Shown here piece after piece: positions 28,594 to 49,721 of a stretch of DNA of 64,000 nucleotides (its first letter is position 1; every line of letters begins with the position of its first letter). The notes below the pieces were generated by a model that was not told the DNA's origin, made no database searches, and saw only the letters and a program-made list of their open reading frames with translations. A program made the position numbers and the translations under genes. The stretch comes from Dechloromonas denitrificans (GTDB lineage: Bacteria; Pseudomonadota; Gammaproteobacteria; Burkholderiales; Rhodocyclaceae), in the NCBI RefSeq assembly GCF_001551835.1, contig NZ_LODL01000005.1, positions 62,001 to 126,000 of the forward strand, read 5' to 3'.

Positions 28594-29222
28594 TCGATGT
28601 CCTGATCGCCGACGACCATGCCATTTTTCGCAGCGGCATGCGCCGCCTGCTCTCCGATGAACCCGACATGCGCGTTTCCGGCGAAGCGGCCAATGGCCAG
28701 GAAGTCATCGACCTGCTGCAGGCCGGCAAATACTCGGTCGTCCTGCTCGACATCAACATGCCGGGGCGCAGCGGACTGGAAACCCTGAAGCGCATCCGCG
28801 CCTCGTGGCCGGCGCAGCCGGTGCTGATGCTGTCGATGTACCCGGAGGAGCAGTACGCCCTGATCGCCATCGAAGGCGGGGCGAACGGCTATCTGTCGAA
28901 GGATCGCGACGCCGGCGAACTGCTCCAGGCGATCCGGGCGGCGGCGGCGGGGGGAAAGTACATTTCGCCGAATGTCGCCGTCCAGCTGCTGACCAAGCCG
29001 CGCCACGAAGCCAGCCAGGCACCGCATCTCGGCTTGAGTGCGCGCGAGATCGAAATCATGCACCTGATCGTGCAGGGGGTGTCGCTGACCGAGATCGGTG
29101 AAAAACTGTTTCTCAGCGTCAAGACGATCAGTACCTACCGGACCCGCCTGCTCGCCAAGCTCGGCCTGGAAAGCAATGCGGATCTGGTGCGCTACGCCCT
29201 AAGACACGAGCTCATTGACTGA
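28590..29222 (+). CDS. NarL/FixJ-type response regulator
   Basis: A 210-residue DNA-binding regulator. The receiver domain has acidic pocket Asp8-Asp9, phospho-acceptor Asp54 in VVLLDINMPG and the conserved Lys in LSKDRD. The LuxR-type helix-turn-helix at about residues 145-205 has LSAREIEIMHLIVQGVSLTEIGEKLFLSVKTISTYRTRLLAKL. ATG 28590 overlaps the kinase stop by four bases, so the two form a translationally coupled two-component pair. Its 3' end overlaps the convergent DsbA-like gene by 24 bases. Confidence 0.95.
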   Translation: MIDVLIADDHAIFRSGMRRLLSDEPDMRVSGEAANGQEVIDLLQAGKYSVVLLDINMPGRSGLETLKRIRASWPAQPVLMLSMYPEEQYALIAIEGGANGYLSKDRDAGELLQAIRAAAAGGKYISPNVAVQLLTKPRHEASQAPHLGLSAREIEIMHLIVQGVSLTEIGEKLFLSVKTISTYRTRLLAKLGLESNADLVRYALRHELID

Positions 29223-29846
29223 ACGCTGGATCGCTTCGCGCAGCGTGGCCGGCGGATGGGCGCCGGACAGCGCGAAGCGATCATTGAAAACGTAATAAGG
29301 CACGCCGGAGACGTTCACCGCGCCATTGGCCGACTTTGCCGTCGAACTGGCGCTGACCAGTTGCTGCAGGCTGATCGTCAGGCCGCATTCGCCGGCGATG
29401 TCGAGCAGGACGGCAAGATCGCCGATGTCGCGGGCGTCCATGAAATAGGCCTGGAACAACGCCTCGATCAGCTGCTCCGTTTGCGCCTCGTCGCCGTTCC
29501 TGGCCACCAGTTCGACCAGGGCATGGGCGGCCAGCGTATTCGGCAGCACGGTAATGTCGTCGAAGGCGAAGTCGACGCCAGCCAGCTGCCCGGCTTCCCG
29601 CACCTGGGCCCGGCGTGCAGCCACGGCGGCCGGGCTGCCGAGGCGTCGAAGATAGAATTCCTGATACGGTTCGCCGGCCGGTGGTGTCGCCGGCAACAGT
29701 GGCAAGCCACGCCAGACGATGCGCAGCTGGATATCCGGGCGGCTTGCCCGGAACTCTTCCAGGGCGGTATTCAGATTGCGTTTTCCGATCAGGCACCAGG
29801 GGCAGATCAGGTCGAAACAGACGTCGATAGTCAGGGTCGGGGTCAT
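29199..29846 (-). CDS. DsbA-family thioredoxin-fold protein (FrnE-like)
   Basis: A 215-residue protein with the active-site CPWC in VCFDLICPWCLIGKRNL near residue 15 and the FrnE/2-hydroxychromene-2-carboxylate isomerase-like fold, including the cis-Pro loop VSGVPYYVFNDRFALSGA. There is no signal peptide, so it is cytoplasmic, unlike DsbA itself. FrnE-type proteins act as oxidoreductases or isomerases; the substrate is unknown. It is last in the minus-strand chain that starts with the Rieske gene, its start overlaps the MFS stop by one base, and its end runs 24 bases into the convergent regulator gene. Confidence 0.9.
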   Translation of the reverse strand: MTPTLTIDVCFDLICPWCLIGKRNLNTALEEFRASRPDIQLRIVWRGLPLLPATPPAGEPYQEFYLRRLGSPAAVAARRAQVREAGQLAGVDFAFDDITVLPNTLAAHALVELVARNGDEAQTEQLIEALFQAYFMDARDIGDLAVLLDIAGECGLTISLQQLVSASSTAKSANGAVNVSGVPYYVFNDRFALSGAHPPATLREAIQRSVNELVS

Positions 29847-31063
29847 CAGATTTCCGAATGCAGGTGGGAGGTGGCGGCGCCCGGCAAGCCGGCCTTGTGC
29901 TCGAGATAGACGGCGACGCCGCCAATCAGGGTCAGCAGGCCGGTGCCGAGAGCCAGCGTGAAGAGGGAATCCCAGAGCCACGGCGCGATCAGGCCGGCGG
30001 CCAGGGCGATCATCGTGAACTGGAGGAAAGTTTGCAGCGAGGCGGCGACCCCGGCGCTCTGCCGCAAGGGTTCGATGGCGCCGCCGATCAGGATGGGCAG
30101 GGCGAGGGCCAGGCCGAACGAATAGGCGAAGAGTGGCAGGACGGCACTGAGGCCGGCTGGCAGCAGGCCGCTGATCAGCAGATTGAGGCCAACCGCCAGC
30201 GCCAGGACGCGATAGGCGGTCGCCAGCAGTTGGCCGCTTTTCAGTTGCCGCAGCAGATGGGGGAAAGCCCAGAAACCGGCGGTCAGGCCGAGGGTGATCG
30301 GGCCGTAGATCAGGTAGATCTCGGTGGCCGCCTTGCCGAGCAGATGAATGACAATGGTCGGGGCCGAGACGACGTAGATGGCCATGCTCGTCCAGTTGGC
30401 GACATGGGCCACCGACAGCCGGACGAAACGCGGCGTGCGCAGCGCATGCAGGTAGGCGCGAGCCAGCGCCGCCGGGTGCAGGCTCAGGCGGCGCTCTTGC
30501 GGCAAGGTCTCCGGCAGCCAGCGCCAGTAGATAGCGGCCAGCATGAAGGCCGTTGCGCTCAGGGCGACGAAGACGGCGCGCCAGCCGAAATGTGTGCTCA
30601 GCCAGGCGCCGATGACCGGCGTCGCGATCAGGCTCAGGGTCTGCAGCATGGTGATGCGGCCAAGCAGGTGCTGGGCTTCCGGGCCATGATGCAGGTCGTG
30701 CAGGATGGAGCGGCTGACCACCATGCCGGCACCGGCGGCGACGCCCTGCGCAATGCGCAGCCCCCACAGCATTTCGATACTGGCCGGAAAAGCCGAGGCC
30801 GCCGCCGCAATGGCGAGCAGGAGCAGGGAAAACAGGATGGTGCGCCGTCGACCGTAGGCATCGGCCAGTGCGCCGTACCACAGCGACATGAAGGCGCTGG
30901 CGAAGAAGAACAGCGAGATGGTCTGCTGCGCTTGCCAGCTACTGATGTTCAGGTCACTGCGCATGGCCGGCAGGGCCGGGATGAGAATGTCCGAGCCTAG
31001 GGAATTGAGCAGGCCCATGACGGCGAGCAGCACAATCAGCACGGCTGGTTGCATCGCCTTCAT
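29846..31063 (-). CDS. MFS transporter, Bcr/CflA (drug efflux) type
   Basis: A 405-residue inner-membrane protein with 12 predicted helices. The first carries MGLLNSLGSDILIPALPAM, typical of Bcr/CflA, the loop motif is WYGALADAYGRRRTILF and the motif-C-like region is ARRIAQGVAAGAGMVVSRSI. Such proteins export drugs, dipeptides or sulfonamides by proton antiport. It sits 21 bases after the small hydrolase gene, so it probably belongs to the same transcript and could export a product or toxic intermediate of the pathway. Confidence 0.9.
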   Translation of the reverse strand: MKAMQPAVLIVLLAVMGLLNSLGSDILIPALPAMRSDLNISSWQAQQTISLFFFASAFMSLWYGALADAYGRRRTILFSLLLLAIAAAASAFPASIEMLWGLRIAQGVAAGAGMVVSRSILHDLHHGPEAQHLLGRITMLQTLSLIATPVIGAWLSTHFGWRAVFVALSATAFMLAAIYWRWLPETLPQERRLSLHPAALARAYLHALRTPRFVRLSVAHVANWTSMAIYVVSAPTIVIHLLGKAATEIYLIYGPITLGLTAGFWAFPHLLRQLKSGQLLATAYRVLALAVGLNLLISGLLPAGLSAVLPLFAYSFGLALALPILIGGAIEPLRQSAGVAASLQTFLQFTMIALAAGLIAPWLWDSLFTLALGTGLLTLIGGVAVYLEHKAGLPGAATSHLHSEI

Positions 31064-31084
31064 GGGGTCGCTTTGCCGGTCGCC

Positions 31085-31639
31085 TCAGACGAGCCGGCCG
31101 AGCAGTTCTTCCGCCTGCGGCCATTCGCCGAAGCCGGCGGCCGGGTTGAGGTGGCCGACGGCGCCGATGTCGACCAGTTCGCTGCCCCAGTCGGCGGCAT
31201 ACTGCTTGACGCGCTCGAGATCGGCCAGCGGGTCGTTGGTGCTGGCTGCGACGATGCTCGGGAAGGGCAGGCGACTGCGCGGGACCGGCAGCCAGCCGTT
31301 GTCGCGCAGCGCGTCGAGGGTCGGGTAGCCGGCCGGCAGCGGCGATTCGAGATCGGCCGGAGCGGCGAGCAGGGCGCCCTGGATCGGCCGGTCGTATTTC
31401 TGCGCCCAATGCACGGCGATCATCACGCCGCCGCTGTGGGCGACCAGGACGAGCGGGCCGTCGATTTTGGCGATGGCCTGCTGCAGAGCCTCGATGCGGG
31501 CGGCACAGCTCAACTTGTCGTGTTCCAGCGGTGCCACCGAGCAGGCCTTGGGCAGCTTGCGTTCGAGAATGGTTTGCCAGTGTTCTTCGACGTGGTCGCG
31601 CAGACCGGGAACGATCAGGATGGTTGGGGAAGTGCTCAT
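31085..31639 (-). CDS. RBBP9/YdeN-family serine hydrolase
   Basis: A 184-residue small alpha/beta hydrolase. The oxyanion region is ILIVPGLRDHVEEHWQ near the N-terminus, the nucleophile Ser is in LVAHSGGVMIAVHW (near residue 74), an acidic residue is in ASTNDPLA and the catalytic His is in GAVGHLNPAAGFGEWP at the C-terminus, so the triad is complete. The family has weak esterase activity and few known substrates. It lies 29 bases after the upstream MFS gene and so could hydrolyse an ester or thioester within this catabolic set. Confidence 0.9.
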   Translation of the reverse strand: MSTSPTILIVPGLRDHVEEHWQTILERKLPKACSVAPLEHDKLSCAARIEALQQAIAKIDGPLVLVAHSGGVMIAVHWAQKYDRPIQGALLAAPADLESPLPAGYPTLDALRDNGWLPVPRSRLPFPSIVAASTNDPLADLERVKQYAADWGSELVDIGAVGHLNPAAGFGEWPQAEELLGRLV

Positions 31640-31668
31640 GGTGGTCTTGAAAAAATCGAGGTTGAAAA

Positions 31669-32979
31669 TCAGATCTGCATGGCACGCATGCGCTGCAGGT
31701 CTGCGGCGTAGTAGCGCTTGCCGATGACGAATGCGGCGGCGGCACCGAGGGCGATCAGCGGCACGACCTGCATGGCGCCCATCAGCCCGATACGGTCGGC
31801 GAGGATGCCGGTGACGAAGGGGCCGGGAGCGAGGCCAAGCAGGTTGTTGGCCAGGGTCAGCGTGGCAAAGGCGGTCGCATGGATCGACGGATGGGTCAGG
31901 TTGGCGACCATGGCGCCGGCCGGGCCGGTGGTGCCGGCGACCAGCGCCATGCCGAGGGCGATCAGGACCAGTTGCGCCGTGCCGGGGGGCAGCATGAAGC
32001 CGATCAGGAGCAGGCTGGCCGAGATCAGGGCGTAGGCGATCGCCACCGTCCATTTGCGGGACGGCACGCTGCGGCTGACCCGGTCGGTGATGACGCCGCA
32101 GACGGTCATGCCGATGGCGCCGATCAGGATGAAGGCGGCGGCGGCGACACCGGCCTTGTCGGTGGGCAGGCCGTAGTAGCGGTTGAGGAAACTGGGCAGC
32201 CAGGCGAGCATGGCGGCCATGATGAACAGTTGCAGACCGCTGCCGATGTAGGCGGCAATGACCGCGCGTGACGAGAACAGGCCCGAGAAGATGGTGCGCA
32301 GCTTGGGGCGCTGGAGGGCGGGTGCCTTGCCGGAGCGGGCCGCATTCTCTGCTTCCGAGCTGATCCGGCTTTCGCGGACGATGAAGGCGTAGAGGATGAC
32401 CAGGACCAGGCCGAAGGCGGCCATCGCACCAAACGACCAGCGCCAGCCGAAATGGGTGGCGACGATACCGCCCAGCGCCATGCCGATCACCGAGCCGACC
32501 GGGCCGCCGGCCATGAAGGCGCTGGCCAGGGTGGAACGCATGTGGGCCGGGAAGATGCTGAGAATGAGGGCGATGCCGACGCTGCCGTAGGCAGCTTCGC
32601 CGACCCCGACGAAGAAGCGGGCGATGAACATCTGGTTGTAGCTGGCGGCCAGCGCGCAGGCGAGGGTGGCCAGGCTCCACAGGCCGGCCATCAGGATGAC
32701 GCTCCTGACTCGGCCCCAGCGGTCGGCGACGACCGACAGCGGAAAAGTGAGCAGGCCGACGAGCAGCGCGACGATGCTGCTGAGCGAGCCAAGCTGGGTG
32801 TCCGACAGGCTCCATTCGGCCTTGAGGATCGGAAAGACGGCATTGAGCACCTGGCGCGACATGTAGTCCGACAGGAGCAAGCCGAAGGTCAGGGCGAAGA
32901 CGATCCAGGCATAGGTGCGCGGAACGCTCGGGGGGGCGGCCGAGACAATCGGCGGCGAATCTGCAATGTAAACGGCCAA
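31669..32979 (-). CDS. MFS transporter (organic anion/aromatic acid type)
   Basis: A 436-residue inner-membrane permease with 12 helices (WIVFALTFGLLLSDYMSRQVLNAVFPILKAEWSLSDTQLGSL at the first helix; VVADRWGRVRSVIL loop motif). The general look is that of the anion:cation or aromatic-acid:H+ symporter branch, so uptake of an organic acid is the likely job. The start is TTG at 32979, supported by AGGAG seven bases upstream. It follows the BKACE gene after 133 bases containing a strong hairpin. Confidence 0.9.
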   Translation of the reverse strand: MAVYIADSPPIVSAAPPSVPRTYAWIVFALTFGLLLSDYMSRQVLNAVFPILKAEWSLSDTQLGSLSSIVALLVGLLTFPLSVVADRWGRVRSVILMAGLWSLATLACALAASYNQMFIARFFVGVGEAAYGSVGIALILSIFPAHMRSTLASAFMAGGPVGSVIGMALGGIVATHFGWRWSFGAMAAFGLVLVILYAFIVRESRISSEAENAARSGKAPALQRPKLRTIFSGLFSSRAVIAAYIGSGLQLFIMAAMLAWLPSFLNRYYGLPTDKAGVAAAAFILIGAIGMTVCGVITDRVSRSVPSRKWTVAIAYALISASLLLIGFMLPPGTAQLVLIALGMALVAGTTGPAGAMVANLTHPSIHATAFATLTLANNLLGLAPGPFVTGILADRIGLMGAMQVVPLIALGAAAAFVIGKRYYAADLQRMRAMQI

Positions 32980-33047
32980 GGGGTGTCTCCTGATGGTTAT
33001 GACCGTGTCGGCGAGCCGTCAGGCGCATCCGGCCGGTTTTTTATTGT

Positions 33048-33078: not shown

Positions 33079-33112
33079 ATGCTACTCGTGCAAACTCAAC
33101 TAGTGCCCGGGC

Positions 33113-34168
33113 TTAGGCGTGCTGCGTGAAACCCTTTTGGCCCGGCTTGCGGCTCGGTGCGAAGCCGTTCTTGGCCAGGGTTTGATCGGCGGTTTCGTAG
33201 AAGGTGCCGATCTTGTAGATCTGGCGGGCTTCCTTGGCGTTGGCGACCTCGCGGCCGAACTCCTTGGAAATGCGCACCAGTTGCTCGATCTGCTCGACGG
33301 TGGTCATCTTGCGCGAACGGTCCTGGGTCCAGATGTTGTCTTCGATACCGCAGCGGACGTGCAGGCCCATGGCGATGGCCATCATGTTCAGCGGCAGGAC
33401 GTTGAGCATGGAGGTTTCCAGGGTCAGCACCGCGCCGTCCGGACAGGCGCGGACGAAGTTGGCCAGGTTGTAGATGTTCGGCGCATCGAAGCCGCCACCG
33501 ATCGCCACCCAGGTCAGGATCAGCGGCACGTTGCAGGCGCCGCGGCGCATGTTGCGCTCGACCGTTTCGAGTTGGGTGATGTTGGCCAGCTGGAAGTGCG
33601 TCTGGATGCCATTGGCCGACAGGCGCTTGATGTGCTCCTCGACCCAGCTCGGACCGGCCGGAATGGTCATCTCGCTGTAGGCGCGCATGCCTTCGGGCGT
33701 ACCCAGGCTGGTGCCGGCAACGTCGGCCGCGCACATCTGCTCGACCACGTTCATCTGGTTGCTGTTGATGGCGATGGTCACCTGGTCGGGCTTCGGGCTC
33801 AGTTCGGCGAGCATGTGGCGGGTGTCGTCGGACAGCCACTTGGCGGTCTCGCCCTCGCTTTCCGGGGCGAAGGAGATCGAACCGCCGACTTGCAGGATCA
33901 TGTCGGGAACGCGGGCCCGGATACCGGCGATCAGTTCATTGAACTTGGAGAGGCGCTTGGAGCCCTTGCCGTCCAGCTCGCGAACGTGAATGTGGATGAC
34001 CGTGGCACCAGCGTTGTAGCAATCGACTGCCTTCTGGATCTGGTCTTCCATGGTGACCGGGATATCTTCCGGGAAGTCCGACGGCTCCCATTCGGGGCCA
34101 TACGGGGCGCAGGTGATGACGAGTTTTTGCTGGTTTTCCGGCCAGAGGGATCCGTCGAGAAAGTTCAT
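33113..34168 (-). CDS. Beta-keto acid cleavage enzyme (BKACE, formerly DUF849)
   Basis: Zinc enzyme of the 3-keto-5-aminohexanoate cleavage family. It condenses a beta-keto acid with acetyl-CoA and releases acetoacetate plus a new acyl-CoA. The 351-residue TIM barrel begins KLVITCAPYGPEW; the metal-binding HIHVRE occurs in ATVIHIHVRELDGKGS near residues 55-72, with further family segments LQVGGSISF and VTIAINSNQMNVV. Members act on several substrates, including lysine-fermentation intermediates and 3-dehydrocarnitine; which one here cannot be read from sequence. A strong AAGGAG ribosome site precedes the ATG. It follows the dioxygenase gene after a 102-base gap. Confidence 0.92.
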   Translation of the reverse strand: MNFLDGSLWPENQQKLVITCAPYGPEWEPSDFPEDIPVTMEDQIQKAVDCYNAGATVIHIHVRELDGKGSKRLSKFNELIAGIRARVPDMILQVGGSISFAPESEGETAKWLSDDTRHMLAELSPKPDQVTIAINSNQMNVVEQMCAADVAGTSLGTPEGMRAYSEMTIPAGPSWVEEHIKRLSANGIQTHFQLANITQLETVERNMRRGACNVPLILTWVAIGGGFDAPNIYNLANFVRACPDGAVLTLETSMLNVLPLNMMAIAMGLHVRCGIEDNIWTQDRSRKMTTVEQIEQLVRISKEFGREVANAKEARQIYKIGTFYETADQTLAKNGFAPSRKPGQKGFTQHA

Positions 34169-34270: not shown

Positions 34271-35128
34271 TTAGAAAGGCTTGTCGCCGATGATGGCGGC
34301 GCGCTCCATCTTGCGATGGCACGGCGGGTAGTCCATGACCGCGTAGTGCTGCGTGCTGCGGTTGTCCCAGATCGCCATGCTGTAAGGCTTCCAGCGCCAG
34401 CGCACCTGGTACTCGGGGTTGTAGGCCTGGCTGATCAGGTACTGCATCAGGTCGCTGCCGTTCTTGTTGTAGTCCTGGCCGTAACGGACGCGGTCCTTGG
34501 TGTGGTAATTGACGAAGTGCGTCGTGAAGGCATTGACGAACAGCACCTTCTCACCAGTTTCCGGATGGGTGCGGACCACCGGGTGCTCGGCATCCGGGTA
34601 CTGGGCCTTCATCGCCAGGCGCTTCTCCTGCGGCATCGCGGCGGCGAACGAGGAATTGAAGCTGTGGTTGGCGATCAGGCTGGCGATTTCCTTCTTGACG
34701 TATTCCGGCAGCTTTTCGTAGGCTAGCACCATGTTCGCCCACATCGTGTCGCCGCCGACCGGCGGGCATTCGATGCAGCGCAGCACGCAACCGAGGGCCG
34801 GCGTCTCGCGCCAGGTGCCGTCGGTGTGCCAGGCATTCTCGTAGCGGTCGATCGGGCTGTTCGGGTCCTTGTAGATCTGGACCAGGCCCGGGGCTTCCGG
34901 GTGGCTCGGGGCCATCGGATGGGTTTCGAGCTCACCGAGGCGCTGGGCGAAGGCCATGTGGTCCTTGCGCGACAGCTTGTTCAAGTCCTGGTCGCGCAGG
35001 AAAAGTACCTTGTGCTTGAGCAGCGCGGCGTAGATCTCGTTGAACAGGCCGTCGTCGCGAACGGCATCGCCGAGATTGACGTCGAGCAGTTCCGCACCCA
35101 CGGCGCATGTCAGTTGTTCGATTCTCAT
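34271..35128 (-). CDS. TauD/TfdA-family 2-oxoglutarate dioxygenase
   Basis: Fe(II)/2-oxoglutarate-dependent oxygenase, 285 residues. The HxD iron site is His101 and Asp103 in ENAWHTDGTWRETP. The distal His is in DNRSTQHYAVMDYPP and the 2-oxoglutarate-binding Arg lies in the following CHRKMERAAI segment. Family members hydroxylate next to a sulfonate, ether oxygen or quaternary amine (taurine, 2,4-D, gamma-butyrobetaine), and the released group would then be a beta-keto or amino acid. The start at 35128 lies downstream of GGAG; the longer reading adds six residues. It is followed by the BKACE gene, which suggests sequential steps. Confidence 0.92.
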   Translation of the reverse strand: MRIEQLTCAVGAELLDVNLGDAVRDDGLFNEIYAALLKHKVLFLRDQDLNKLSRKDHMAFAQRLGELETHPMAPSHPEAPGLVQIYKDPNSPIDRYENAWHTDGTWRETPALGCVLRCIECPPVGGDTMWANMVLAYEKLPEYVKKEIASLIANHSFNSSFAAAMPQEKRLAMKAQYPDAEHPVVRTHPETGEKVLFVNAFTTHFVNYHTKDRVRYGQDYNKNGSDLMQYLISQAYNPEYQVRWRWKPYSMAIWDNRSTQHYAVMDYPPCHRKMERAAIIGDKPF

Positions 35129-35142
35129 TTGTGGTTGTCTCC

Positions 35143-36123
35143 TCAAATTACAAAAATTGATGAACCGGTCGTCTTGCGGGCTTCCAGATCACGGTGCGCC
35201 TGCACTGCCTCCCGCAGTGCATAACGTTGGTTGATTTCGATCTTGATGCGGCCGGCAGCCACATGACCGAAAATTTCGTTGGCCAGCGCACTCTTCTCGG
35301 CCGGGTCGGCGATGTAGTCGGCGAGCGCCGGGCGGGTCAGGTAGAGCGAACCCTTCATCGCCAGCAGTTGCGGGTTGAAGCCGTCGATCGGGCCGGAGGC
35401 GGTGCCGACGCAGACCATCAGGCCACGGCGCTTCAGCGAATCGAGCGACGCCAGGAAGGTGCTCTTGCCGACGCTGTCGAAGACGACATTGACGCCGACC
35501 CCGTCAGTCAGCTCGCGGGCTCGCTTGGCGACATCCTCGTGGCTGTAGTTGATGGTTTCGTCGCAACCGTGGGCGCGGGCGATTTCCGCCTTCTCCTCGG
35601 TCGACACGGTGCCGATGACGCGCAGGCCGAGCAGCCTGGCCCACTGCGAGACGATCAGGCCGACGCCGCCCGCTGCGGCATGCAGCAGGATGGTGTCGCC
35701 AGCCTTGAAATCATAGATGCGGCGCATCAGGTAGGCCGAGGTCAGGCCGCGCATGGTCATTGCAGCGGCTGTCTCGCATTCGATGCCGGCCGGCAGCTTG
35801 ATCAGCGGTGCGGCGGCGATGATGCGGGCCGTGCTGTAGGCGCCCAGCGTATTGATGAAGCCGGTGTAGGTCACCTTGTCGCCAACTGCCACATTGTTGA
35901 CGCCGGGGCCGATGGCCTCGACGATACCGGCCGCCTCGACGCCCATGCCGGCAGGCAGTGGGATCGGGTAGGTGCCGTTGCGGAAGTAGGTGTCGGCGAA
36001 ATTCAGGCCGACCGCGACATGGCGCAGGCGGACTTCGCCCGGGCCGGGTTCGCCGACTGCAACATCCTCCAGTCGCAGGACTTCGGGGCCGCCGGCCTCA
36101 TAGAATCGAATTGCCTTTTCCAC
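35143..36123 (-). CDS. NADPH:quinone oxidoreductase (zeta-crystallin type)
   Basis: A 326-residue medium-chain reductase without zinc ligands. It shows NFADTYFRNGTYPIPLPAGMGVEAAGIVEAIG, the NADPH-binding LLHAAAGGVGLIVSQWARLLG and SVGKSTFLASLDSLKRRGLMV. It reduces quinones or enones by one or two electrons using NADPH. The start is GTG at 36123, supported by AAGGAG. It lies 33 bases after the Usp-hemerythrin gene and 14 bases before the dioxygenase gene, so it is clearly within the operon and probably detoxifies or reduces an intermediate. Confidence 0.93.
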   Translation of the reverse strand: MEKAIRFYEAGGPEVLRLEDVAVGEPGPGEVRLRHVAVGLNFADTYFRNGTYPIPLPAGMGVEAAGIVEAIGPGVNNVAVGDKVTYTGFINTLGAYSTARIIAAAPLIKLPAGIECETAAAMTMRGLTSAYLMRRIYDFKAGDTILLHAAAGGVGLIVSQWARLLGLRVIGTVSTEEKAEIARAHGCDETINYSHEDVAKRARELTDGVGVNVVFDSVGKSTFLASLDSLKRRGLMVCVGTASGPIDGFNPQLLAMKGSLYLTRPALADYIADPAEKSALANEIFGHVAAGRIKIEINQRYALREAVQAHRDLEARKTTGSSIFVI

Positions 36124-37228: not shown

Positions 37229-37537
37229 TCATGCCTCGACCTGCACAAAGACTTTTCCATCGTCGATCCTGACGGGAAAGGTTCTCAGCCCCTTCTCGGG
37301 GGCAACCAGCAAGGCGCCGGTCGTCACGTCGTAACGCCAGCCGTGGGCCGGGCAGGCGACGACCTTGCCGCACAACCGGCCGCCACTCAGCGCAGCACCA
37401 CCGTGCAGGCACGAGTTTTCCGTGGCGTGGATGGTGCCGTCGACATTGAAGAGGACGATATCCGTCGTCCCGATGCGCACGGGACGCGACTTGCCGGGGG
37501 CAATGTCATGCAGGGAATATGTTTCGACGAATTTCAT
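37229..37537 (-). CDS. Rieske-type [2Fe-2S] ferredoxin
   Basis: A 102-residue soluble electron carrier. The cluster ligands are visible as Cys43-x-His45 (NSCLHGGAAL) and Cys62-x-x-His65 (VACPAHGWRYD) with correct 16-residue spacing. It resembles the NirD/BphF group that feeds electrons to ring-hydroxylating or similar oxygenases. No Rieske oxygenase alpha subunit is present in the window, so its partner is unknown; the dioxygenase in this chain does not need a ferredoxin. It is the first minus-strand gene and diverges from the LuxR-type regulator. Confidence 0.93.
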   Translation of the reverse strand: MKFVETYSLHDIAPGKSRPVRIGTTDIVLFNVDGTIHATENSCLHGGAALSGGRLCGKVVACPAHGWRYDVTTGALLVAPEKGLRTFPVRIDDGKVFVQVEA

Positions 37538-37593: not shown

Positions 37594-37614
37594 CCCCCCT
37601 CGAAAAAGGGGGGG
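37594..37614. promoter_or_regulatory. C6/G7 inverted repeat, candidate operator between Rieske gene and regulator
   Basis: CCCCCC (37594-37599), eight bases TCGAAAAA, then GGGGGGG (37608-37614), directly followed by TATAAC. It lies between the divergent Rieske gene and the MalT-like regulator gene. A similar repeat occurs upstream of the DUF1302 operon. Binding by the regulator is inferred from this recurrence. Confidence 0.5.
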
Positions 37615-37759
37615 TATAACTATTTCAGCAAAGCAGTGATTTTGTTTTATCGTATAAATGATGACTGCTGGATTGTTCGCCTGGAGACGCGAACATGGCG
37701 GTCCGTTTCGAGTGTTGTTCGGCAAATACGATAACGATTCCATAGAGAACTCACGCCCG

Positions 37760-40483: not shown

Positions 40484-40552
40484 ACCCCCCCCTTCTTTAC
40501 CTGACTAACCCCCCGTTTCTGGGGGGGGAAGCTGGCGCGCGCTCTGGATAAT
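40484..40552 (+). promoter_or_regulatory. Promoter/operator region of the DUF1302 operon
   Basis: ACCCCCC occurs as a direct repeat at 40484 and 40508 (24 bases apart). The second copy forms an inverted repeat with G8 at 40521-40528 across GTTTCT. GATAAT at 40547-40552 is a good -10 box without a recognisable -35, which is what an activator-dependent promoter looks like, with the repeat sitting over the -35 region. The same C-run/G-run design stands upstream of the regulator gene. Confidence 0.5.
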
Positions 40553-42340: not shown

Positions 42341-43690
42341 ATGCGATTTCAAAAATCACTCACTATCGTCGCCGTCGCTTCTACATTGAGCGGCCTGGCC
42401 CACGCCGGCGTCACCGCTGACGAAGCCAAGAAACTCGGCACTTCCCTGACCGCCGTTGGTGCCGAGAAAGGCGCCAACAAGGACGGTTCCATCCCGGCCT
42501 ACACCGGTGGCCTGACCAAGGCGCCGGCGGCCTACAAGGCTGGTGATGGCCTGCGCCCAGACCCCTTTGCTGACGAAAAACCGCTTTTCTCGGTTGATGG
42601 CAAGTCGACCGACAAATACGGCGACAAGCTGACCGAAGGGACCAAGGCGCTGATGAAGAAGAATCCGGATTACCGGATCGATGTCTACAAGACCCAGCGC
42701 ACGGTTGCCTATCCCAAGGCGGTCGAGGAAACCACCGCCAAGTGCGCCACCGCCGCCAAGACCAATGCCGGCGGGCGTTCCATGGAAGGCTGCCATGCCG
42801 GCTTCCCCTTCCCGATCCCGAAGACCGGCTTCGAGGTGATGTGGAACCATCTGGTGCGTTACGAGGGCGTTGCCTACACCGTGAAGTACCAGAACTGGAA
42901 TATCGACGCATCCGGTCGGCCGTCCATCTCGACCGAAGGCACTATCGTCCAGGACTACCCGTACTGGCAGGCGGACAAGGCTGATACCGGTGTCTACTAC
43001 AAGCAGCGCATCACCTACTCTGGCCCGGCCCGTCGTGCCGGCGAGGCGCTGATGCTGATCGATCCGCTCGACTATACCGACAAGGACCGCCGTGCCTGGC
43101 AGTACTTGCCTGGTCAGCGTCGCGTCAAGGTCGCGCCCGATCTCTCGCACGACACCCCGAATCCGGGCACCGGCGGTACTTCGACCTTTGACGACGTCTT
43201 CCTGTTCAACGGCTCGCTCGATCGTTACGACTTCAAGCTGGTCGGCAAGAAGGAAATGTTCGTGCCGTACAACACCTATCGTATGGCCTACAACTCGACC
43301 AAGGAAGATCTGCTCAAGCCGAAATTCCTGAATCCTGACCTGGTCCGCTGGGAACAGCACCGCGTCTGGGTGGTTGAGGCCAACCTGCGCGAGGGCAAGC
43401 GTCACGTCTATAGCAAGCGGACCTTCTACATCGACGAGGATAGCTGGACCATCCTGGCTTCCGATGAGTACGACGCCCGTGGTCAGTTGTTCCGTGCCGG
43501 TTTTGCCTACATGACGCCGAGCTACGAAGCGCCGGCACCGTATAGCGCAACGCATGGCTTGTACGACCTGGTCGCCGGCTCCTACTCACTGAGCGGCTAC
43601 ACCGCCCAGACCGGCGGCATGCGCCACAGCAAACCGGTTTCCGAGCGTGACTGGTCGCCGGAAGCGCTGGCTGGTGCCGGTATCCGCTAA
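42341..43690 (+). CDS. DUF1329 periplasmic/outer-membrane-associated protein
   Basis: A 449-residue protein with a signal peptide (MRFQKSLTIVAVASTLSGLAHAG). It shows the DUF1329 pattern: VTADEAKKLGTSLTAVGAEKGANKDGSIPAYTGG near the mature N-terminus, then a lipoprotein-sorting-like (LolA/LolB type) fold with RRAWQYLPGQRRVKVAPDLSHDTP and FVPYNTYRMAYN. It probably shuttles a lipophilic molecule between membranes in concert with the RND permease. It is 10 bases from the DUF1302 gene and has a strong AAGGAG ribosome site. Confidence 0.9.
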   Translation: MRFQKSLTIVAVASTLSGLAHAGVTADEAKKLGTSLTAVGAEKGANKDGSIPAYTGGLTKAPAAYKAGDGLRPDPFADEKPLFSVDGKSTDKYGDKLTEGTKALMKKNPDYRIDVYKTQRTVAYPKAVEETTAKCATAAKTNAGGRSMEGCHAGFPFPIPKTGFEVMWNHLVRYEGVAYTVKYQNWNIDASGRPSISTEGTIVQDYPYWQADKADTGVYYKQRITYSGPARRAGEALMLIDPLDYTDKDRRAWQYLPGQRRVKVAPDLSHDTPNPGTGGTSTFDDVFLFNGSLDRYDFKLVGKKEMFVPYNTYRMAYNSTKEDLLKPKFLNPDLVRWEQHRVWVVEANLREGKRHVYSKRTFYIDEDSWTILASDEYDARGQLFRAGFAYMTPSYEAPAPYSATHGLYDLVAGSYSLSGYTAQTGGMRHSKPVSERDWSPEALAGAGIR

Positions 43691-43759
43691 CAAGGCAAAT
43701 CAGGGCCGGGCGAGAGGCTTCTCTTGTCCGGCATGCCCTTCCTTATTGAAGAGTTCGCC

Positions 43760-44833
43760 ATGAACATCCGCAGCATCATTCTCCCTGTCATTGCGCTGAC
43801 GCTCGGCCTGCCGCTTTCGGCGACGGCCGACGGCTTTCGCGATGCGCTCGATACGCCGGCCCGGCAGAGCCCATTCGCCGCCAAGACCTTGCTCAATGGT
43901 GTGACCAATGCAGGGCACCGGGTGGTTGCGGTTGGTCAGCGCGGGCATATCGTTTATTCCGACGATGCCGGCAAGTCCTGGCAGCAGGCGCAGGTGCCGG
44001 TCAGTTCCGACCTAGTGGCAGTGAGCTTTCCGACCCCCGCGAAGGGCTGGGCGGTCGGCCATGATGGCATCGTGCTGCATTCGGCCGACGGCGGAGCGAC
44101 TTGGGCGCGCCAGCTCGATGGCCGTGGTGCGGGCAAGATCATGACTGATTTCTACGCTGCGCAGGCGGCCAAGGGCAACCTGGGTGCGCCGGAGGCAGCC
44201 GCCGCACTGATCGACGAGGCCGGCCGTATTGCCGCCCAGGGGGCGGAAAACCCCTTCCTCGATGTCTGGTTTGCGGATGAAAACAACGGTTTCATCGTCG
44301 GCGCCTTCAACCTGATCTTTCGCACGGCCGATGGCGGCAAGACCTGGGAACCGTGGTATCACCGGACGGCAAACCCCAATCGTCTCCACTTCTATGCCAT
44401 GCGCCAGGTTGGTAACAGTCTGTACCTCGTCGGCGAACAGGGCTCGGTACAGAAACTCGATGCCGGCGGTGGACGCTTCGTGGCGCTGGAAACCGGCTAC
44501 CGGGGAACCTTCTTCGGCGTCACCGGCAGCGACGGCGCAGTCATCGTGCATGGCCTGCGTGGCCACGCCTTCCGCAGCCTCGATGGCGGAGCAAGCTGGC
44601 AGAAGATCGAAACCGGCCTGCAGGATGGTGTCACCGGCAGCAGCGTCTGCGGAGAAGGGCGCATTGTCCTGGTCAGCCAGGCGGGCCGGATGTTGCTCAG
44701 CGACAACAGTGGCGCGAGCTTTCGCCCGGTCAAGCTGGAGCAGGCCGTGCCCGCCTCGGCGGTTGCCTGCCTGGGCCGTGATGTAAGCGTGATCGCCGGG
44801 GCGCGGGGTGTCCGCGCTCAGGCTATCCAGTAA
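43760..44833 (+). CDS. YCF48/BNR-repeat periplasmic protein
   Basis: A 357-residue protein with a signal peptide (MNIRSIILPVIALTLGLPLSATA). Repeats of the photosystem II stability factor YCF48/BNR type recur as VYSDDAGKSWQQAQ, LHSADGGATWARQ, FRTADGGKTWEPW and FRSLDGGASWQKI, so it is a beta-propeller. Such proteins accompany DUF1302, DUF1329 and RND genes and may hold the complex together. ATG 43760 was chosen because it starts the signal peptide and GAAGAG lies upstream; an ATG at 43724 would add 12 residues. Confidence 0.9.
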   Translation: MNIRSIILPVIALTLGLPLSATADGFRDALDTPARQSPFAAKTLLNGVTNAGHRVVAVGQRGHIVYSDDAGKSWQQAQVPVSSDLVAVSFPTPAKGWAVGHDGIVLHSADGGATWARQLDGRGAGKIMTDFYAAQAAKGNLGAPEAAAALIDEAGRIAAQGAENPFLDVWFADENNGFIVGAFNLIFRTADGGKTWEPWYHRTANPNRLHFYAMRQVGNSLYLVGEQGSVQKLDAGGGRFVALETGYRGTFFGVTGSDGAVIVHGLRGHAFRSLDGGASWQKIETGLQDGVTGSSVCGEGRIVLVSQAGRMLLSDNSGASFRPVKLEQAVPASAVACLGRDVSVIAGARGVRAQAIQ

Positions 44834-44874: not shown

Positions 44875-47325
44875 ATGGCTGTCGCAACTGACCTCATGGA
44901 CCGCATGCCCATCGTGCGGAGCCTGAAAGATTTCAACCAGAATTCGGGCACCAAGCTTGAACGACTGATCTTCAACAACCGCCTGGCCGTCGTCGTGGCC
45001 TGCGTCCTGGTAACGCTGGTCTTGCTGTTTGGCGCGGCGACCAAGCTGACGCTGAATGCCAGCTTCGAGCGGATGATTCCGCAGAGCCAGCCCTATATCA
45101 AGAACTACCTGGACAACCGCGCCGAGCTGCGTGGCCTGGGCAATGTGCTGCGTATCGTCGTCGAAAACACCGAGGGCGATATTTTCGACCCGAAGTACCA
45201 GGAAACGCTGCGTAAGATCAGCGATGAGCTGTTCCTGACGCCTGGCGTCGATCGCGCCTGGGTGAAATCCCTGTGGACACCGGGCGTACGCTGGACGGAG
45301 GTGACCGAAGAGGGCTTCCGCGGTGGTCCGGTGATGCCGGAATCCTACGACGGTTCGCCGAAAGCGACCGACCAGCTACGCCTCAACATCGCCCGATCCG
45401 GCATCGTCGGCCGCTTTGTCGGCAACGACTTCAAGTCGAGCATGATCGTGGTTCCCTTGCTCGACAAGGACCCGGCGACCGGCCAGCAGATCGACTACCG
45501 GGCGCTTTCCCGGACGCTGGAAGAGAACATCCGCCATCGCTACGAGCAGGATGGCTCCGGTACACGCATCCATATGATCGGTTTTGCCAAGCTGGTCGGC
45601 GACCTGATCGAAGGCCTGTCGCAGGTCATGATGTACTTCGCGATTGCCGCCGCCATCGCTGTTGCCATCATTTATTTCTACACCCGCTGCCTGCGCAGTA
45701 CGGCGCTGGTGGTCGCCTGTTCGGTGGTCGCCGTGGTCTGGCAGCTCGGGCTGGTCGCCTTCCTCGGCTTCGAGCTGGACCCCTTCTCCATCCTTGTGCC
45801 TTTCCTGATCTTCGCCATCGGTGTCTCGCACGGGGCACAGAAGATGAACGGCATCATGCAGGATATCGGACAGGGGACACACCGCCTGGTCGCCGCCCGC
45901 TATACCTTCCGTCGCCTGTTCCTGGCCGGGATGACCGCCTTGCTGGCCGATGCCGTGGGCTTTGCCGTGCTGATGCTGATCGATATCCCGGTTATCAAGG
46001 ACCTCGCACTGTCCGCCTCGATGGGCGTCGCCGTGCTGATCTTCACCAACCTGATCCTGTTACCGGTCCTCCTGTCCTATACCGGCGTCAGTGCCGGGGC
46101 AGCCGAGCGTAGCTTGCAGGCCGACCAGGCCGAGTCTTCCGGCAAGGGCATGGCCGGCCTGTGGTCTTGGCTTGAACGCTTTACCGAACGTCGCTGGGCG
46201 CTGGGCGCGGTGGGCGTTTCCCTGGCGCTGGCGGTGATTGGCTTCGTCGTCAGCCTGCAATTGAAGATCGGCGATCTCGATGCCGGGGCGCCGGAATTGC
46301 GCGCCGACTCGCGCTACAACAAGGATAACGCCTACATTTCCGGCAGCTATTCACTGTCCAGCGACCAGTTCGCGGTGATCGTCAAGACGCCGGCCGAAGG
46401 TTGCTTAAATTATCAGACCCTGGTCGAGGCCGATCGCCTGGCTTGGAACCTGCAGCAGTTGCCCGGCGTACAGACTACCGTTTTCCTGGGCAATGCCGTC
46501 CGCCAGATTACCGCCGGTTCGAACGAGGGCAGCCCGAAGTGGCTGACCCTGGCACGCAATCAGGACGTGCTCAACTACGGCGCGCAGCAGGCTTCGGTCA
46601 ACAACCCGGACTTGTTCAACAACGATTGTTCTGTGATGCCGGTGATTGCCTATCTAAGCGACCATCGTGCCGAAACGCTGAGCCGGGTGGTCGATGAGTC
46701 GGCCCGCTTTGCCGAAGCCAATTCGACGCCCGAGCATCAGTTCCTGCTCGCCGCCGGCAATGCCGGTATCGAGGCGGCGACCAACATCGTCGTTCATGAA
46801 GCCAACCGCACCATGCTGTTCTACGTCTATGGCGTCGTGATCCTGCTCTGCTTCATCACCTTCCGCAACTGGCGTGCTGTCGTCGTCGCCATCGTGCCGT
46901 TGATCGTGACCTCGATCCTCTGCGAAGCGTTGATGGTGATCCTCGGCATCGGCGTCAAGGTCGCGACCTTGCCGGTGATTGCGCTCGGCGTCGGCATCGG
47001 CGTCGACTACGCGCTCTACCTGCTGAGCATCCAGCTTGCCCAGCAACGGGCCGGCGCCTCCCTCGCCGTCGCCTACAAGCGCTCGATCCAATTCACCGGC
47101 AAGGTTGTTGCCTTGGTCGGCATCACCCTGGCGGCCGGCGTCGTCACCTGGGTCTGGTCGCCGATCAAGTTTCAGGCCGACATGGGCATCCTGCTCACCT
47201 TCATGTTCGTCTGGAACATGGTCGGCGCCCTGATCCTGATCCCGGCCCTCTCGCACTTCCTGCTCGACAAGCCGGCGCGCAGTGCCCAGTTCAGCCTCTC
47301 CATGCTGCGCACCGCCAGCCGCTAA
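44875..47325 (+). CDS. RND/MMPL-family transporter
   Basis: An 816-residue inner-membrane permease with the two-fold RND layout: helix 1 near residue 40, a large periplasmic loop, five helices at about 250-400 (including the SSD-like LDPFSILVPFLIFAIGVSHGAQKM), helix 7 near 440, a second periplasmic loop, then five helices at about 640-800 (VALGVGIGVDYALYLLSI). Its length and companions place it with the lipid-type HpnN/MMPL branch, not with antibiotic pumps, and no membrane-fusion protein is encoded nearby. AGGAG precedes the ATG. It may drive import or export of a hydrophobic substrate together with the three genes before it. Confidence 0.92.
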   Translation: MAVATDLMDRMPIVRSLKDFNQNSGTKLERLIFNNRLAVVVACVLVTLVLLFGAATKLTLNASFERMIPQSQPYIKNYLDNRAELRGLGNVLRIVVENTEGDIFDPKYQETLRKISDELFLTPGVDRAWVKSLWTPGVRWTEVTEEGFRGGPVMPESYDGSPKATDQLRLNIARSGIVGRFVGNDFKSSMIVVPLLDKDPATGQQIDYRALSRTLEENIRHRYEQDGSGTRIHMIGFAKLVGDLIEGLSQVMMYFAIAAAIAVAIIYFYTRCLRSTALVVACSVVAVVWQLGLVAFLGFELDPFSILVPFLIFAIGVSHGAQKMNGIMQDIGQGTHRLVAARYTFRRLFLAGMTALLADAVGFAVLMLIDIPVIKDLALSASMGVAVLIFTNLILLPVLLSYTGVSAGAAERSLQADQAESSGKGMAGLWSWLERFTERRWALGAVGVSLALAVIGFVVSLQLKIGDLDAGAPELRADSRYNKDNAYISGSYSLSSDQFAVIVKTPAEGCLNYQTLVEADRLAWNLQQLPGVQTTVFLGNAVRQITAGSNEGSPKWLTLARNQDVLNYGAQQASVNNPDLFNNDCSVMPVIAYLSDHRAETLSRVVDESARFAEANSTPEHQFLLAAGNAGIEAATNIVVHEANRTMLFYVYGVVILLCFITFRNWRAVVVAIVPLIVTSILCEALMVILGIGVKVATLPVIALGVGIGVDYALYLLSIQLAQQRAGASLAVAYKRSIQFTGKVVALVGITLAAGVVTWVWSPIKFQADMGILLTFMFVWNMVGALILIPALSHFLLDKPARSAQFSLSMLRTASR

Positions 47326-47378
47326 CAACCATGACAACCCTTAGCCAATCGTCCGCCCGCGGGGCAGGAGCCGGAAAA

Positions 47379-48383
47379 ATGCACGCCTTCTTCGCCCATC
47401 GCATTCCGCACTGGAAAGCTCTCTGGCCGGGCATCTTGACCGCCATCACCATTGCCATGGCAGCAACTTTCGTCGCCGAGCACCAGGGCGGCCCGCAACT
47501 GCTCTATGCACTGTTCTTCGGCATGGCCTTCAACTTTGCGGCGCAGGGTGAGAAGGTCAAGGCAGGTATCGAGTTCACCGCACGCCAGGTCCTGCGCTTC
47601 GGTGTTGCGCTGCTCGGCGTGCGTATCACGGTCGACCAGATTACGTCGATCGGCAGCACTTCGATCACGATGGTCATCGGCGGGGTGTTCATGACCATCC
47701 TGTTTGGTGTGTCGATCGGCCGCATCCTGAAGCGACCGGCAGTCGAGGGCGTGCTCACCGGTGGTGCTGTGGCGATCTGCGGTGCTTCTGCCGCCCTGGC
47801 CATTTCAGCGGTCTTGCCGAAGAACGAGGAAAACCAGCGTTTCACGCTGTTTACCGTAGTCGGTGTCACCGCCCTGTCGACCGTGGCGATGATCGCCTAC
47901 CCGAGTATCGCCAAATTCCTCGAACTCAGCCCCAGTGCCTCAGCCGTCTTCATCGGCGGCACTATCCATGATGTTGCCCAGGTGGTGGCTGCCGGCTACC
48001 TGATTTCCCCGGAGGTCGGCGACACGGCAACTTTCGTCAAGCTGCTGCGCGTTGCCATGCTGCTGCCGGTCGTCGTCATCCTGTCGCTGCTCTTCCGCAG
48101 CCAGGGCGGCGGGCAGGGCAGCAAGCCGCCGCTGCTGCCGATGTTCCTGGTCGGCTTCGCAGCCCTGATCGTGATCAACAGCCTGGGCTGGATACCCAAG
48201 CCGGTCGTTGACGGCATGTCTGGCCTGTCGCGCTGGTGCCTGGTGGTGGCGATCGCCGCCCTCGGCGTCAAGACCTCCTTTCAGCAACTGGCTGCCCTCG
48301 GCTGGCGCCCGGTCTTGATGCTGGTGATCGATACCGTATTCCTGGCTTGCCTGATCCTCGGCGGCCTGATGCTCCAGCACTAA
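47379..48383 (+). CDS. YeiH/UPF0324-type transporter (putative sulfate exporter family)
   Basis: A 334-residue membrane protein with about ten helices. Family segments include [64 protein letters not shown] and [16 protein letters not shown]2855 members have been proposed as sulfate exporters in taurine degraders; this is family knowledge, not shown here. If right, it would fit sulfite or sulfate release by the TauD-type oxygenase. ATG 47379 has AGGAG eight bases upstream; an in-frame ATG at 47331, five bases after the RND stop, has no ribosome site. Confidence 0.88.
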
Positions 48384-48405
48384 ACCTTTTGAAAGAGCAA
48401 AGATC

Positions 48406-49062
48406 ATGAACAAGATTGTGCAATGGCCGGAAATCGGCCCGATGTTCCGGGATGGCATGACCGTCATGTTCGGCGGCTTCATGGGGGTCGGCACCCCCTT
48501 GGGGATCGTCGCCGCGCTGCGCGAAAGCCGCGTCGGCCAGCTGACCCTGATCGGCAACGATACGGCGATGCCCGATGCCGGTGTTGGTCCGCTGGTGGCG
48601 AGCGGTCAGGTGAGCCGGGTGATCGTCTCCCATATCGGTACCAACCCGACCACCGGCAAGAAGATGATCGCCGGTGAACTCGATGTCGACCTCGTGCCCC
48701 AGGGCACGCTGATCGAGCGTATCCGCTGTGGTGGCAGTGGCCTGGGCGGCGTCCTGACGCCGACCGGGGTCGGCACCGTGGTCGAGGAGGGCAAGACCAA
48801 GATGGCGGTTGGCGGCAAGGAATACCTGCTCGAGCTGCCGCTGCGCGCCGACATCGCGATCATCAAGGCGAAGCGCGCCGACCGGGCCGGCAATCTGGTC
48901 TATGAACGGGCGGCGCGCAATTTCAATCCGGTGATCGCCTTTGCCGCCGATCTGGTCATCGTCGAAGTCGATGAACTGGTCGAGGTCGGTGAGATCGATC
49001 CGGACATGGTGATGACCCCGGCCGCGCTGGTCGACAAGATCGTTCTGAGTCAGGGAGCTTGA
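48406..49062 (+). CDS. atoD: CoA-transferase subunit A (acetoacetate/acetate type)
   Basis: A 218-residue alpha subunit of a class I CoA-transferase. It shows the CoA-transferase signature [22 protein letters not shown] near the N-terminus, the [22 protein letters not shown] segment and the C-terminal [27 protein letters not shown]. Length and sequence match E. coli AtoD. With subunit B it moves CoA between acetyl-CoA (or succinyl-CoA) and acetoacetate or short acids. Acetoacetate is precisely what a BKACE releases, which links the two arms of this locus. Confidence 0.9.
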
Positions 49063-49064
49063 AA

Positions 49065-49721
49065 ATGGAAGCCAAGGAAATCATTGCCCGTCGCGTTGCC
49101 CAGGAGTTGAAGGAGGGCTATGTCGTCAATCTCGGGATCGGCCTGCCGACCATGGTGCCGCGCTTCCTGCAGAAGGGCATAAACATCACGCTACAGTCGG
49201 AAAACGGCTTTCTCGGCCTCGGGCCACTCGAAGGCGAGCCGATGCCCGGTGTCGTCAATGCCGGCGGTGTGCCCTGCGGCCTGGTGCCGGGGGCGGCGAT
49301 GTTCGACAGCGCCACCTCGTTTGCGCTGATCCGCGGTGGTCATGTTGACGTCACCGTACTGGGCGGTTTGCAGGTCGACGAAGAAGGCAGCCTGGCCAAC
49401 TGGATGGTGCCCGGCAAGATGGTGCCCGGCATGGGCGGTGCGATGGATCTGGTCAGTGGTGCCCGCAAGGTGATCGTCGCCATGGAGCATTGCACGAAGG
49501 AGGGTGAAACGCGCATCCTTGAACGCTGCAATTTACCGCTGACGGCCAAATCCCGGGTCTCGATGGTGGTTACAGAGCTGGCTGTCTTCTCGATTTCGCA
49601 TGGCGAGTTCATCCTGCTCGAAACCGCGCCCGGGGTCTCGGTCAAGGTGGTGCGCGAGAGGACCGGCGCACGTTTCGTCGTGCCCGAGAATGTCGGCCGG
49701 ATGGCGCTCGGTATCGCTTAG
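49065..49721 (+). CDS. atoA: CoA-transferase subunit B (acetoacetate/acetate type)
   Basis: A 218-residue beta subunit. The catalytic Glu is in NITLQSENGFLGLGPLEGEP, and NAGGVPCGLVPGAAMFDSATSFALIRGGHVDVTVLGGLQVDEEG is the conserved core. It begins two bases after the subunit A stop with GGGAG as ribosome site, so the pair is co-translated. It is the last gene of the DUF1302 operon. Acetate, butyrate or acetoacetate specificity cannot be fixed from sequence, so the gene symbol is provisional. Confidence 0.9.
   Translation: MEAKEIIARRVAQELKEGYVVNLGIGLPTMVPRFLQKGINITLQSENGFLGLGPLEGEPMPGVVNAGGVPCGLVPGAAMFDSATSFALIRGGHVDVTVLGGLQVDEEGSLANWMVPGKMVPGMGGAMDLVSGARKVIVAMEHCTKEGETRILERCNLPLTAKSRVSMVVTELAVFSISHGEFILLETAPGVSVKVVRERTGARFVVPENVGRMALGIA

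Follow-up and report, generated by a model that had tools for sequence, protein, structure and literature searches.

Beta-keto acid cleavage enzymes (BKACE; DUF849) are described from lysine fermentation, deoxyribonate and other pathways (Kce, 2Y7F; PMC6365646). The oxidative deoxyribonate pathway of Pseudomonas simiae proceeds by oxidation to a beta-keto acid, BKACE cleavage and recycling of acetoacetate, a logic shared by the route proposed below; it uses a short-chain dehydrogenase/reductase (SDR) and not a dioxygenase, its substrate is a sugar acid, and the available portion of the report mentions no sulfite or hydrophobe export genes (PMC6365646). In the dioxygenase TauD, taurine hydrogen-bonds to His70 and Arg270, and Asp94, Asn95 and Ser158 position its amine (PMC9304159). 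YeiH, of the YeiE-YeiH sulfite stress system, confers sulfite resistance in Salmonella (PMC12880088). AmeABCD of Castellaniella defragrans is induced with a hydrophobic substrate pathway, and deletion of ameABCD lowers monoterpene tolerance and slightly increases Nile Red accumulation in uncoupled cells (PMC6394551). We analyzed a 64,000-nucleotide stretch of Dechloromonas denitrificans (contig NZ_LODL01000005.1, positions 62,001 to 126,000; hereafter the window), in which relatives of these proteins are encoded in two divergent gene arms around a MalT-like regulator. No study of this gene set was found among open-licence PubMed Central (PMC) papers.

We propose, at a probability of roughly one half (0.48), that the two arms are one horizontally spread catabolic module. 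A MalT-like regulator would co-activate both arms, a sulfur-bearing amphiphilic acid would be degraded by a TauD-like dioxygenase and a divergent BKACE, YeiH would export the sulfite and an AmeABCD-like pump would give protection. Computation shows the gene set with its linkage and co-occurrence, where the putative operator lies and which residues are conserved. An initial annotation, made from the letters of the window, had listed the genes of both arms, and Pfam and NCBIfam profile scans, used to assign the protein families of the window, recovered every one of them at or near its place:

29199..29846 (about), minus strand: DsbA-like thioredoxin-fold protein (PF01323, 85.8 bits)
29846..31063, minus strand: major facilitator superfamily (MFS) transporter 1 (PF07690, 131 bits)
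31085..31711, minus strand: small alpha/beta serine hydrolase, Ser_hydrolase (PF06821, 144 bits, scored on the longer open reading frame (ORF) 31085-33028)
31669..32979, minus strand: MFS transporter 2 (PF07690, 162 bits)
33113..34168, minus strand: divergent BKACE/DUF849 clade (PF05853, 211.6 bits against a gathering score of 24.8)
34271..35146, minus strand: TauD-like Fe(II)/2-oxoglutarate dioxygenase clade (PF02668, 204 bits)
35143..36123, minus strand: NADPH:quinone reductase-type MDR enzyme, QOR (NF008024, 357.7 bits against a cut-off of 348)
36157..37191, minus strand: Usp-hemerythrin fusion (PF00582, PF01814)
37229..37537, minus strand: Rieske ferredoxin (PF00355, 66.7 bits)
37594..37614, no strand: putative operator 1, C6-N8-G7 dyad, CCCCCCTCGAAAAAGGGGGGG, 56 bp before the Rieske start and 43 bp before the longest malT-like start
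37658..40444, plus strand: MalT-like ATPase/LuxR regulator (PF13401, PF00196)
40509..40528, no strand: putative operator 2, C6-N6-G8 dyad, CCCCCCGTTTCTGGGGGGGG, 89 bp before the DUF1302 start
40618..42330, plus strand: DUF1302 outer-membrane protein, AmeA-like (392 bits)
42341..43690, plus strand: DUF1329/LolA-like periplasmic protein, AmeB-like (454 bits)
43724..44833, plus strand: YCF48/PSII_BNR periplasmic protein, AmeC-like (81.7 bits)
44875..47325, plus strand: HAE3-type RND/MMPL transporter, AmeD-like (PF03176; HAE3 model 157 bits, below its cut-off of 352)
47331..48383, plus strand: YeiH family, probable sulfite exporter (PF03601, 233 bits against a gathering score of 24.5)
48406-49062, plus strand: CoA-transferase A, AtoDA type (NF007394, 344.5 bits against a cut-off of 315)
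49059-49721, plus strand: CoA-transferase B, AtoDA type (TIGR02428, 299.8 bits against a cut-off of 243.6)

Judged by domain positions, the 560-residue ORF at 29199 and the 647-residue ORF at 31085 are mechanical extensions, of a DsbA-like protein of ~214 residues and a hydrolase of ~208 residues, respectively. The regulator had been given 894 residues, which is correct for a start at ATG 37760; the longest ORF (37658-40444) has 928. We class it as MalT-like by architecture only, as it scores 181.8 bits on the MalT equivalog model NF003420, below the cut-off of 537.

The plus-arm genes from DUF1302 through DUF1329 and YCF48/PSII-like to the HAE3 RND transporter repeat the four protein types of AmeABCD in the same order, a likeness of types and not of directly compared sequences. 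Unlike in Castellaniella, YeiH and CoA-transferase genes come after them and the set is tied to TauD and BKACE (PMC6394551). The initial annotation had let the outer-membrane and RND proteins move the substrate. A role in uptake was abandoned: the set matches AmeABCD, whose tested role is export and monoterpene tolerance (PMC6394551), and because deletion there lowers tolerance we read the pump as probable protection rather than uptake.

Linkage of the two arms and a putative shared operator

A BKACE genome scan yielded 169 relatives. The best 80 loci were retained, and one further locus of the genus and four plasmid loci brought the set to 85. No flank exceeded 10 kb (15 kb for L099), and distal genes are therefore undercounted; genes were called with tblastn anchors that leave some ORFs fused, which makes the locus counts approximate. 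The TauD clade was found in 76 of the 85 loci (77 including L021, where it is hidden by ORF fusion), MFS transporter 2 in 62, QOR in 59, the small hydrolase in 41, the acyl-CoA ligase in 36, the MalT-like regulator in 26, Rieske in 24, YeiH and the DsbA-like protein in 23 each, DUF1302 and Usp-hemerythrin in 20 each and CtfA in 5.

The view of the initial annotation that the arms are one module depended on their being linked in related genomes and on common regulation. Linkage is seen in Dechloromonas, Azoarcus, Denitromonas, Pseudomonas, Lysobacter and Rugamonas, and regulation is addressed by the shared putative operator. The order QOR-TauD-BKACE-MFS-DsbA-Rieske-YeiH is repeated in several Pseudomonas regions and one Rugamonas region, adjoined by the hydrolase and by DUF1302/DUF1329 or MMPL genes. 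The Azoarcus KH32C plasmid has a LuxR-type regulator flanked by both arms as in the window, a ligase gene lying between regulator and DUF1302. Dechloromonas hortensis (L019), the closest named relative among the loci fetched, has the same block, with protein identities of 91-98% for most genes (DUF1329 80-88%, DsbA-like 81%, DUF1302 69%). Among 60 Dechloromonas genomes (thresholds of at least 76% identity for YeiH and at least 88% for MMPL), the TauD clade is present in four, so the block is accessory in the genus; YeiH and MMPL occur in the same four on the same contigs, at ~13 kb from TauD in three and 28 kb in G082. A class-wide sample of 184 genomes, 17 of them with any match and none at 50% or above except the window's own, gave no information on linkage.

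Both gaps beside the regulator contain a dyad of the form C6-N-G6. The dyad was spotted by eye after a shared-word comparison and then pattern-searched; it was thus chosen post hoc, and the genome count and the relatives serve as independent checks. In the window and in most loci, L031 being an exception, the generic shared-word test between the two gaps gave no clear excess over shuffles. Across the source genome (4.24 Mb, 41 contigs), C6-N6-9-G6 has exactly two sites, one in the gap on either side of the malT-like gene; no site matches the reversed control pattern. Within the window, CCCCCN5-10GGGGG hit the same two places only, in four overlapping matches; 3 of 100 shuffles reached four.

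For the relatives the search pattern was looser than for the genome (at least 5 C, 4-10 bases, at least 5 G). It gave 50 sites over 27 MalT loci, in 25 of the 27, none of them within stretches matched by window proteins, versus 7 occurrences in 57 non-MalT loci with twice as many bases. Measured to the start of the matched protein, the dyads usually lie ~60 bp before Rieske, ~105 bp before Usp-hemerythrin where there is no Rieske, and 90-213 bp before DUF1302; where MalT is followed by TauD, the usual distance to TauD is 102-176 bp. A terminator role for the first dyad is unlikely because its gap is divergent. The evidence for placement of the putative operator before both arms is strong, and we predict that the arms are co-regulated through it.

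These data bear on whether the locus might instead hold two separate neighbouring functions, a catabolic minus arm and a general hydrophobe-tolerance pump in the plus arm. Of the genomes of the genus without the TauD clade, 14 have MMPL relatives at 57-68% identity, and Rhodococcus and Novosphingobium clusters showed no pump genes within 10 kb flanks, as such a division would allow. However, the dyad is common to both arms and occurs only twice in the genome, YeiH and CtfAB, which are plus-arm genes here, accompany TauD-BKACE elsewhere, and an MMPL orthologue of at least 88% identity is confined to the four module genomes of the genus. We consider the division highly improbable; on linkage, synteny and the shared putative operator, the case that the arms form one unit is strong.

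The dioxygenase, the cleavage enzyme and YeiH

Residue conservation was determined in 106 distinct TauD-clade and 106 distinct BKACE sequences. The Fe(II) triad H99, D101 and H255 of the dioxygenase is kept in 106/106, as is R266, which we take to be the 2-oxoglutarate-binding arginine. The taurine-contacting His70 and Arg270 are likewise invariant (106/106). In contrast, the amine-positioning Asn95 is replaced by Glu in all 106 and Tyr73 by Ala in 90, so the anion end of the pocket is kept and the other end altered. The iron triad, Arg266, His70, Arg270 and also Phe159 are common to the E. coli TauD/alkylsulfatase AtsK family; the changed amine-side pocket, the linkage to BKACE and YeiH and the catabolic-type AraC or MalT-like regulators are not. 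The window protein scores 193 bits against E. coli TauD. Canonical taurine catabolism was considered and rejected, given a score below the cut-off of the taurine-dioxygenase model NF007104 (254 vs 313 bits), the altered amine pocket and the different genomic setting. We consider it likely that the clade releases a sulfur oxyanion.

The window BKACE falls under the cut-offs of all four NCBIfam BKACE-type models that it matched. An AlphaFold model of medium confidence (mean predicted local distance difference test score 68.6) has DUF849/BKACE chains as its best Foldseek matches and adds little beyond the family match. The His-x-His motif, Glu276, Arg272 and Asp277 are invariant in 106/106 sequences; from work on Kce we take the former two to be metal ligands and the latter two active-site residues. 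The clade thus shares with known BKACEs the fold, the metal, Arg and Asp residues and acetoacetate activation nearby, and differs as a separate clade with a longer chain (351 residues vs 275-334 in solved relatives), small residues at a Tyr position and Gln for a Glu, as discussed below. An acetoacetate--CoA ligase is encoded in 14 of the 85 loci, none of which also has CtfA, and the window has CtfAB; the four ligases tested scored 943-1001 bits against a cut-off of 639. The combination of TauD, BKACE and acetoacetate activation is recurrent across the loci of relatives. The initial annotation had BKACE release acetoacetate for activation, which is upheld as far as the activating neighbours go; release itself is suggested by these neighbours only, in a divergent clade with an altered active site.

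The coupling of the enzymes to YeiH was analyzed in 79 genomes of one genus, Pseudomonas, a sample entered via the locus of Pseudomonas sp. Leaf48 (G084, itself among the 79) and chosen to reduce the bias of BKACE-selected loci. At thresholds of at least 50% identity for the TauD clade, 64% for the BKACE clade and 50% for YeiH, the TauD clade is present in 15 genomes, the BKACE clade in the identical 15, and YeiH in all of these and three others (Fisher p = 1.9e-16 for TauD/BKACE and 1.5e-13 for TauD/YeiH, values that overstate independence because the genomes are related). TauD lies within 3 kb of 15 of 18 clade BKACE genes. YeiH lies within 15 kb of 16 of 19 TauD-clade genes, compared with none of 43 typed lower-identity TauD genes. 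This coupling, together with the kept anion end, suggests that sulfite is released and exported, and the sulfonated substrate that the initial annotation had listed as an option gains from both. The transporter family is that of Salmonella YeiE-YeiH, but here YeiH sits in a catabolic operon (PMC12880088).

Some variants of these genes were seen in passing. YeiH matches at G089:C43:148649-149264 and C2:199074-199477 are in several pieces and are possibly decayed copies. Pseudomonas loci L056, L075, L076, L080 and L081 have a tandem TauD-BKACE-QOR-TauD-BKACE arrangement, with paralogous pairs side by side that perhaps serve two substrates or two successive cuts. One Dechloromonas-group genome has three genes of the TauD clade inside 15 kb (L023 and G082:C6:39539-54010). 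The Pseudomonas clusters L112 and L122 are variants in which a 50% TauD relative accompanies an acyl-CoA ligase and BKACE gave no match; L112 additionally has a small cupin, YeiH and an MFS gene.

A proposed desulfonating route and competing explanations

From the gene set and residues we infer the substrate, all reactions, the transport direction and the regulation of the following scheme. The MalT-like regulator would switch both arms on through the C6-N-G6 dyad before each. The substrate, an amphiphilic acid whose sulfur oxyanion would most simply be a beta-carbon sulfonate, would enter by an MFS carrier. Hydroxylation of the sulfur-bearing carbon by the TauD-like dioxygenase would expel sulfite and leave a beta-keto acid, whose carboxymethyl end the divergent BKACE would move onto acetyl-CoA; the products would be acetoacetate and a shortened acyl-CoA. 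Thiolase, together with CtfAB or, in some relatives, acetoacetate--CoA ligase, would convert acetoacetate to acetyl-CoA, and an adjacent beta-oxidation operon would burn the shortened acyl-CoA. YeiH would export the sulfite, and the AmeABCD-like pump would shield the envelope from the hydrophobic compound.

A minimal TauD-BKACE unit without other module genes is found in 18 loci (Cupriavidus, Rugamonas, Crenobacter, Paraburkholderia and others). An AraC-type gene is present in 9 of these, QOR in none and an SDR in two (L047, L100), not adjoining the pair. The pair alone fits direct ketone formation, for which the simplest chemistry would be removal of a beta-sulfonate to give a beta-keto acid. 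A beta-sulfonate substrate and canonical cleavage are plausible, and such a route would bypass the block that a beta-sulfonate places on beta-oxidation. The wider proposition is possible but doubtful: that this is a widespread route for beta-sulfonated or beta-sulfooxy amphiphilic acids, combining one-step TauD desulfonation to a beta-keto acid, BKACE cleavage without CoA activation, and MalT-like dyad coordination with sulfite export and hydrophobe efflux.

Several observations weigh against the scheme. Glu at the Asn95 position of TauD would disfavour a second negative charge nearby, and Arg/His anion pockets could also take carboxylates or sulfate esters. The co-occurrence in Pseudomonas is imperfect, as no TauD lies within 15 kb of 3 of the 18 clade BKACE genes, three genomes have YeiH but no TauD clade, and 7 of 25 YeiH copies have neither enzyme within 15 kb. 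In the genus, a stop interrupts YeiH in G065 and MMPL in G082. Two loci with MalT (L086, L099) showed no looser dyad. QOR, Rieske, the DsbA-like protein and Usp-hemerythrin are without a clear role in the scheme. Finally, seven Pseudomonas loci have a clade BKACE but no TauD, with an SDR in six of the seven; the small unit of L028 has a zinc-type dehydrogenase 1.2 kb upstream, and the neighbours of the small units are only partly annotated. The genomes of those seven loci all carry TauD-clade copies elsewhere.

The dehydrogenases just named would suit a route in which a hydrophobic carboxylic acid free of sulfur is hydroxylated at the beta position by the TauD-like enzyme and then oxidised by a dehydrogenase to the beta-keto acid that BKACE cleaves, with YeiH serving another anion or an unrelated stress. 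An SDR could turn a beta-hydroxy into a beta-keto acid, and TauD-family enzymes acting on carboxylates are known, such as the phenoxypropionate dioxygenases among the PDB matches. Such a route is unlikely in view of the tight TauD-YeiH coupling, with lower-identity TauD genes as control, the identity of YeiH as a sulfite-resistance factor (PMC12880088), and the 18 small loci that have neither QOR nor an adjacent SDR.

The active site of BKACE raises a different doubt. The Tyr position (PdKce Tyr173, Kce Tyr145) is replaced in 102/106 sequences, by Ala, Gly or Thr in 98 of them and by Val or Ser in the other 4, and 4 sequences retain Tyr; a nearby Glu is Gln in 104/106. This Tyr is described as present in all BKACEs, and BsfD of flavophos biosynthesis, with Phe in its place, has divergent chemistry (PMC12871164). 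Because a residue reported as universal is replaced, the exact BKACE reaction is uncertain, and the clade might transfer acetyl or carry out another non-cleaving reaction, like BsfD, with acetoacetate coming from elsewhere. The invariant His-x-His, Glu276, Arg272 and Asp277 and the recurrence of acetoacetate-activating enzymes beside BKACE argue for cleavage and make the non-cleaving alternative rather improbable.

A pathway for carnitine or gamma-butyrobetaine, with a 2-oxoglutarate hydroxylase, a carnitine dehydrogenase and a dehydrocarnitine-cleaving BKACE, is suggested by analogy, since a TauD domain is found in gamma-butyrobetaine hydroxylase and dehydrocarnitine is among the compounds cleaved by BKACEs. 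The initial annotation had included carnitine-like compounds among its substrates, and this option was dropped. No carnitine dehydrogenase or betaine gene is present among the module proteins scanned, the characterised families against which the BKACE was scored are distant from it, and a hydrophobe pump and sulfite exporter would have no role there, which leaves the option scarcely credible.

If the sulfonate scheme is right, it explains how sulfur-bearing amphiphiles (such as surfactant residues or natural sulfonates) could serve as carbon for many bacteria, among them Rhodocyclaceae, Pseudomonas, Cupriavidus, Lysobacter, Rhodococcus and others. It would also give a concrete role to a BKACE clade without a described substrate among open-licence PMC papers, and tie the DUF1302/DUF1329/RND cassette and YeiH to catabolism. 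Should the substrate prove to be another one, the pathway can still be tested directly through the operator, the co-occurrence of the three genes and the minimal unit of two genes.

Neighbouring genes and minor observations

On its left the module adjoins a beta-oxidation operon (20176-27336) that was missing from the initial list, followed by a two-component pair:

20176..21873, plus strand: AMP-binding acyl-CoA ligase, first gene of the operon (PF00501, 242.8 bits)
21870..24293, plus strand: FadB-like 3-hydroxyacyl-CoA dehydrogenase/enoyl-CoA hydratase (PF02737, PF00725, PF00378)
24308..25513, plus strand: thiolase (PF00108, 238.8 bits; PF02803)
25510..27336, plus strand: acyl-CoA dehydrogenase (PF12806, PF00441)
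27523-28593, plus strand: PAS histidine kinase (profile scan)
28545-29222, plus strand: LuxR-type response regulator, adjoining the PAS kinase

The thiolase could split acetoacetyl-CoA or 3-ketoacyl-CoA. A homologue of the acyl-CoA dehydrogenase is present in the Rhodococcus and P. resinovorans clusters. The PAS kinase and LuxR response regulator, a pair also found in loci L019 and L021, are probably outside the module core.

A tRNA-Ser gene (19909-20001) directly precedes the ligase that opens the beta-oxidation operon and could mark an integration site for the accessory block. Just to the right of the module, a DUF3141 protein is followed by a phosphate acetyl/butyryltransferase (51791-55020). 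Elsewhere in the window, a Peptidase_C14 (caspase-domain) protein with MORN repeats (11321-12646) resembles bacterial metacaspases.

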